From: Bacillota bacterium
GTDB taxonomy: Bacteria > Bacillota > Sulfobacillia > JAJYWN01
Assembly (NCBI GenBank): GCA_021791495.1
Contig: JAJYWN010000010.1
Span: 1-64,000, forward strand
Reading direction: 5' to 3'
DNA length: 64,000 bases
Part shown: positions 18,453 to 18,802 of the stretch, piece after piece
Numbering within the stretch: position 1 is the first letter of the stretch
Layout of the letters: the number at the start of each line of letters is the position of its first letter
Program-made: the position numbers and the translations under genes
Notes under the pieces: model-generated
What the model saw: only the letters and a program-made list of their open reading frames with translations
The model's database searches: none
Told to the model about the DNA's origin: nothing

Positions 18453-18802
18453 CCTAGGTGAGCGCTGCAAAACCCCAGTTGTCTAGCCAATCTGGAGAGT
18501 TCTTGGGACGGCATGCTGTCGGGCGCGAGTTAGTGCCAGAGGAGTACAAGGTTTCAGGGCAAAAGGTCGGTTTTCCGGACACTCGGGTGCACCAAACCGT
18601 CCGGAAATCCCGACACTTCTCCCCCCGCGGAGGTCAAGACAAGCCTTCTAGCGACGCGGCAGGTTACATAACTACCGAATCAATCCGGGTTTCCGGATGG
18701 TTACTAAGCGGTGAGGATCCACTTTTCCGACCATTCATGTTTTGAGAGCTCTGACACAGGGCATCGAACTCTCAGAAACCGCTTCTGCAGCGCTCACCTA
18801 GG
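18453..18802. mobile_element. Candidate MITE with perfect 17-bp terminal inverted repeats
   Basis: CCTAGGTGAGCGCTGCA at 18453-18469 is repeated exactly in inverse orientation at 18786-18802, bounding 350 bp with no coding potential. CCTAGG is itself palindromic and could be a 6-bp target duplication; the element proper would then be TGAGCGCTGCA...TGCAGCGCTCA, 338 bp. Subterminal GAGAGTTC motifs occur inverted near both ends. Inside, GTCGG.TTTTCCGGAC and GTCCGGAAATCCCGAC form an imperfect hairpin (about 18566-18616), with further TTTCCGGA copies near 18689. The element is less GC-rich than the surroundings and lies exactly where the ancestral secDF-recJ cluster is interrupted. It fills the gap of about 540 bp between two divergent genes. 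Confidence 0.6.

Follow-up and report, generated by a model that had tools for sequence, protein, structure and literature searches.

What is the 350-bp stretch, bounded by perfect inverted repeats, that lies between lapA and a peptidase gene in this DNA, and how did it come to be there? The original prediction, made from the 64,000-nt stretch analysed here (the window), took it to be a non-autonomous transposable element (MITE). Both arms are present as claimed: CCTAGGTGAGCGCTGCA at 18453-18469 returns as its exact complement at 18786-18802, giving a 17-bp perfect inverted repeat at the two limits of the stretch, and when the arms are lengthened 19 of 20 positions match. It is the sole perfect inverted repeat of at least 17 bp with arms no more than 1 kb apart in the 64-kb window, where base composition leads to an estimated chance expectation of about 0.01 such repeats. 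The lower GC content proposed for the interior was also observed (55.7%, versus roughly 60-71% in the surroundings), as were the subterminal and central palindromes.

With the 350 bp as query we searched the genome to which the window belongs (81 contigs, 4.2 Mb), the copies described here being gathered by search only, and obtained 33 matches which, when aligned in one orientation, split into two sets. The first consists of about 14 loci with one or both ends (L001, which is the window copy, L002-L011, L015, L020 and L030), and the second of matches to the middle of the element only. Both ends are kept at 8 of the 14 loci (L001, L002, L003, L006, L008, L009, L010 and L020), and the flanks of the 14 are unrelated to one another. 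With 25 ends aligned, the multiple copies with conserved ends that a MITE should have left elsewhere in the genome were thus found. Identity to the window copy is 73-80% for the full copies; the copies differ by 15-27%, and several are truncated. The window copy alone is without a 33-bp piece after about 18509, the other full copies having ~33 bp extra between the left arm and the core described below; L020 is an internal-deletion copy of 176 bp that retains both ends. At L004, at ~1771-1815 (C18:85255 region), short repeats of GCACTCACCCAA lie in tandem just after the right MITE end, which looks as though it had undergone duplication.

The consensus of the 25 aligned ends is n-CTAG-GTGAGCGCYGCARAA, in which the base outside CTAG is variable and CTAG is conserved in most ends. 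The ends are conserved over 19 bp; beyond this point left and right ends diverge from each other and the flanks are unrelated. The terminal inverted repeats are therefore 15 bp long, or 19 bp counting CTAG, and the limits of the element are as follows.

18454 to 18457, no strand: CTAG, left copy of the putative target duplication (25 ends; TAG is the host stop at 5 loci).
18458 to 18472, + strand: left terminal inverted repeat GTGAGCGCTGCAAAA (25-end consensus GTGAGCGCYGCARAA).
18458 to 18797, no strand: MITE proper, 340 bp (alignment of copies).
18783 to 18797, - strand: right terminal inverted repeat GTGAGCGCTGCAGAA, read on the - strand (25-end alignment).
18798 to 18801, no strand: CTAG, right copy of the putative target duplication (end alignment and inverted-repeat scan of the window).

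CTAG is present on both sides of the element, yet it is itself palindromic. At five loci (L002, L008, L020, L038 and L039) CTAG supplies the in-frame stop (TAG) of a host gene, the frames stopped in this way being long, of coding composition and intact-looking; they include alaS at L039 and, at L020, a proA-like gene for a member of the aldehyde dehydrogenase family. The presence of host stop codons in CTAG indicates that CTAG predates the element, at least on the side of the stop codon, and insertion exactly at such a codon leaves the host gene whole. On its simplest reading, CTAG would be a 4-bp target that is duplicated on insertion. Since CTAG is more likely target than element, we place the element proper at 18458-18797. 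At L006, where the flanks CCAG...CTGG form an inverted rather than a direct pair, CTAG could instead belong to the terminal repeat, or the copy may have mutated. A CCTAGG target duplication had been suggested for the window copy; its CTAG part is what these ends point to, and its outer C/G part fell away, as the outermost C/G, outside the repeat, occupies a position (position 1) that varies among the 25 ends. It should be noted that CTAG is scarce in the window, at about a third of its expected frequency (66 observed, 213 expected).

An IS sharing the ends had been named as a further sign of a MITE. What we observed is a second element type in three copies (L055 1502-2075, L039 1502-1955 and L038 949-1516; search and alignment), which opens with the same ~28 bp as the MITE and continues into another interior, 455-570 bp in size and containing large palindromes. 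The three copies share 93-95% identity, and the element is younger than the MITE; no right end was found for it. A fragment of an IS1634-family transposase is present in two of the three copies, and a longer IS1634 remnant lies at another locus, L107. No intact IS of this kind came to light: searches of the genome with PF01609, PF05598 and PF13546 gave none with the MITE ends, and PF01609 gave no intact IS1634 element. Directly downstream of the second element at L055 (2101-2734) a gene for a Phd/YefM-type antitoxin lies next to a small RelE-like ORF, for which there was no Pfam match.

Elements of the IS1182 family in the same genome also start at CTAG (L105, L106 and one end at L110; L105 and L106 were assigned to the family by NCBIfam). 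The copies at L105 and L106 (C42, C62:179 kb) have intact-looking transposase frames and terminal repeats that start CTAGGAG. These elements resemble the MITE in having CTAG at their ends and the first G in common, and differ from it in the remainder of the end (GAGCCYGTGTTGG or GAGTCTGTCGGGC) and in carrying a transposase. Derivation of the MITE from IS1182 was rejected, terminal agreement being restricted to CTAGG; IS1272, of the IS1182 family, reportedly replaces stem-loops without target duplication (PMC5678879). The likeness to the IS1634 family is that a fragment of its transposase lies beside the sister element that shares the MITE ends. In contrast, the two closest Bacilli plasmid relatives examined (Alicyclobacillus, Geobacillus) end differently, and plasmid IS1634 ends were varied, one having CTAG (Acidiphilium, L150) and one a CTAA duplication. 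From the CTAG-ended IS1182 elements and the IS1634 fragments in the second element we infer that the mobilising enzyme may have been a DDE transposase of IS1634 or IS1182 type that has since been lost or has decayed.

The interior had been said to code for nothing, and our tests agree. There is one longish open frame, of 95 codons in the window copy, that stays open in several copies and in which indels are often in frame. A coding role was nevertheless rejected: among eight copies the substitutions at the three codon positions are nearly equal (523/522/477), and the median dN/dS is 1.07.

In the aggregate, the dispersed conserved ends, the putative CTAG target, the second element that shares the ends and the non-coding interior uphold the MITE proposal, and we regard it as highly probable that the window element is a non-autonomous DNA transposon of this kind. 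By the mechanism that we propose, a DDE transposase supplied in trans would bind the terminal repeats GTGAGCGCYGCARAA, excise the element and paste it into CTAG, with duplication of the 4 bp. The family is old and probably now inactive, since its copies are 15-27% different and include several truncated ones, and the genome yielded no intact partner IS. A close parallel is MITEPsy1 of Pseudomonas syringae, an IS5-like MITE that inserts at CTAG or YTAA with a 4-nt duplication and whose transposition has been shown (PMC3189936). Like the window MITE it is short and gene-less, with terminal inverted repeats (18 nt in MITEPsy1), and its CTAG target answers to the one proposed here; unlike the window MITE, MITEPsy1 is 100 nt long, has another end sequence, was recently active and has a candidate parent IS present (PMC3189936). 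The family described here is new in sequence and ordinary in kind.

The unusual part is an independently dispersed core with patch exchange. Without the arms, the middle of the element (~205 bp) recurs at about 17 further loci, in some of them only partially, and a border comparison of 14 of these solo copies showed the conserved stretch to stop at the same points. Solo cores occupy intergenic spaces of every orientation, and all copies are intergenic. In the window copy the parts of the core are as follows.

18525 to 18732, + strand: core repeat, ~205 bp (searches; core alignment).
18565 to 18582, + strand: core site S1, GGTCGGTTTTCCGGACAC (core alignment).
18599 to 18616, + strand: core site S2, GTCCGGAAATCCCGACAC, 34 bp centre-to-centre from S1 (core alignment).
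18617 to 18660, + strand: hypervariable core centre (copy comparison).
18684 to 18697, + strand: core site S3, TCCGGGTTTCCGGA (core alignment).
18715 to 18732, + strand: core site S4, 34 bp centre-to-centre from S3 (core alignment).

The layout thus comprises a small left palindrome, four palindromic sites, a conserved block and the hypervariable centre, the pairs S1-S2 and S3-S4 having the same spacing and inverted symmetry. The block, TTACATAAC, is largely conserved and contains an invariant CATAA. There is little pair covariation in the core, and the inner 4 bp are reversed in S2 in five copies and in S1 in one; together these features are more in keeping with double-stranded binding sites than with an RNA stem. 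An RNA stem in the core was rejected, compensatory changes being few and the S2 reversal breaking the S2/S3 stem in those five copies.

Comparison of the centres connects the two sets of copies. The MITE copies have three centre types, two of which (the types of L013 and L022) also occur in solo cores. In the L008 core, a tract of ~80 bp is 95-100% identical to the solo core L013, and on either side of it the sequence matches other MITE cores (L002). Most simply, this patch would have been exchanged between a MITE-borne and a solo core by gene conversion.

We take the core to be a repeat in its own right, dispersed through intergenic spaces, which the MITE probably captured a single time before it spread; since then patches have been swapped between MITE-borne and solo cores, gene conversion being the simplest route. 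It is possible, though somewhat less likely than not, that the core represents an independent, previously undescribed multi-site repeat family for which the MITE serves as a carrier and whose patches are exchanged with solo copies by gene conversion.

It is conceivable, but doubtful, that the core rather than the arms is the mobile unit, i.e., a REPIN-like or other short self-moving repeat that was picked up by the transposon owning the terminal repeats. Such a repeat would leave what is seen at the ~17 solo loci, namely copies that share their borders and lie in intergenic spaces of either orientation, and the symmetric 34-bp pairs are suggestive as well, REPINs and BIMEs being likewise symmetric intergenic arrays of short palindromes in inverted orientation. 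Unlike these, the core has four sites in two pairs, so that each half contains two sites and not one REP, is ~205 bp long, and has no core-flanked RAYT that we found. A Y1 transposase gene fragment does lie ~600 bp from one solo core; however, the remaining Y1 genes of the genome are not flanked by cores, and a Y1/RAYT partner is not supported. Neither a target duplication nor a conserved terminal motif was seen at the solo-core borders, and the solo copies are diverse (44-71% identity), so that any movement may be ancient.

A cellular role is unlikely. The core would in that case be a chromosomal protein-binding array of four palindromic operators, serving for example in nucleoid organisation, and the MITE would carry it as cargo. 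Conserved palindromes around a variable centre, the strictly intergenic positions and the inner-base reversals, which suit double-stranded sites over RNA pairing, are all consistent with such an array, but the sites are candidates only, and none of the 153 other genomes of the class contains the array. As for the whole 350 bp being an RNA element (regulatory or structured) inherited vertically between lapA and the peptidase gene, with the inverted repeat as its stem, the 350-nt strand does fold better than shuffles (z -5.5), but this very improbable reading is largely refuted by the dispersed copies at 14 loci with unrelated flanks, the fold being largely explained by the terminal repeats, core folding being similar on both strands, compensatory pair changes being almost absent in the core, and an Rfam covariance-model search of the window copy and six solo cores giving no match near threshold.

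Returning to the element as a MITE that carries a separately dispersed core, we examined its surroundings. In the window, the element and three + strand genes, for an M1 peptidase and two amidohydrolases, lie between lapA-recJ-apt-relA and a VWA gene, with the element located at one edge of the inserted block. In G025, of the same class, recJ is followed directly by VWA, ATPase and secDF genes, and in G002, of the same order, by a TnpB-like ORF and then the VWA gene. These two genomes, which keep recJ near VWA (G025 also secDF), bear out the view that the element sits at a break in an ancestral secDF-recJ order. We report its place beside this break as a position only, not as the cause of the break. 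The TnpB-like ORF of G002 (L147 1552-2373), between recJ and VWA, is another insertion at the same junction.

Outside its genome the family was not encountered. The full element had no match in 60 relatives, and the core none in the 153 other genomes of the class. Exact-pattern scans of GTDB with both ends and the core gave none, in a search that could miss diverged copies. Neither MITE nor core was found in viral contigs, plasmids or phages, and all these collections may omit own-species records. The end and core sequences, searched as text, gave nothing in the literature. Because it is absent from the compared genomes, the closest of which are of the same order, the MITE/core family looks lineage-specific.

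For the biology of this lineage, the MITE is thus an example of a lineage-specific element that would use a scarce 4-bp target without harm, the genes remaining intact after insertion at their stop codons. The nested core, with its three centre types, may preserve on a small scale a natural history of recombination among non-coding repeats scattered through a bacterial genome.
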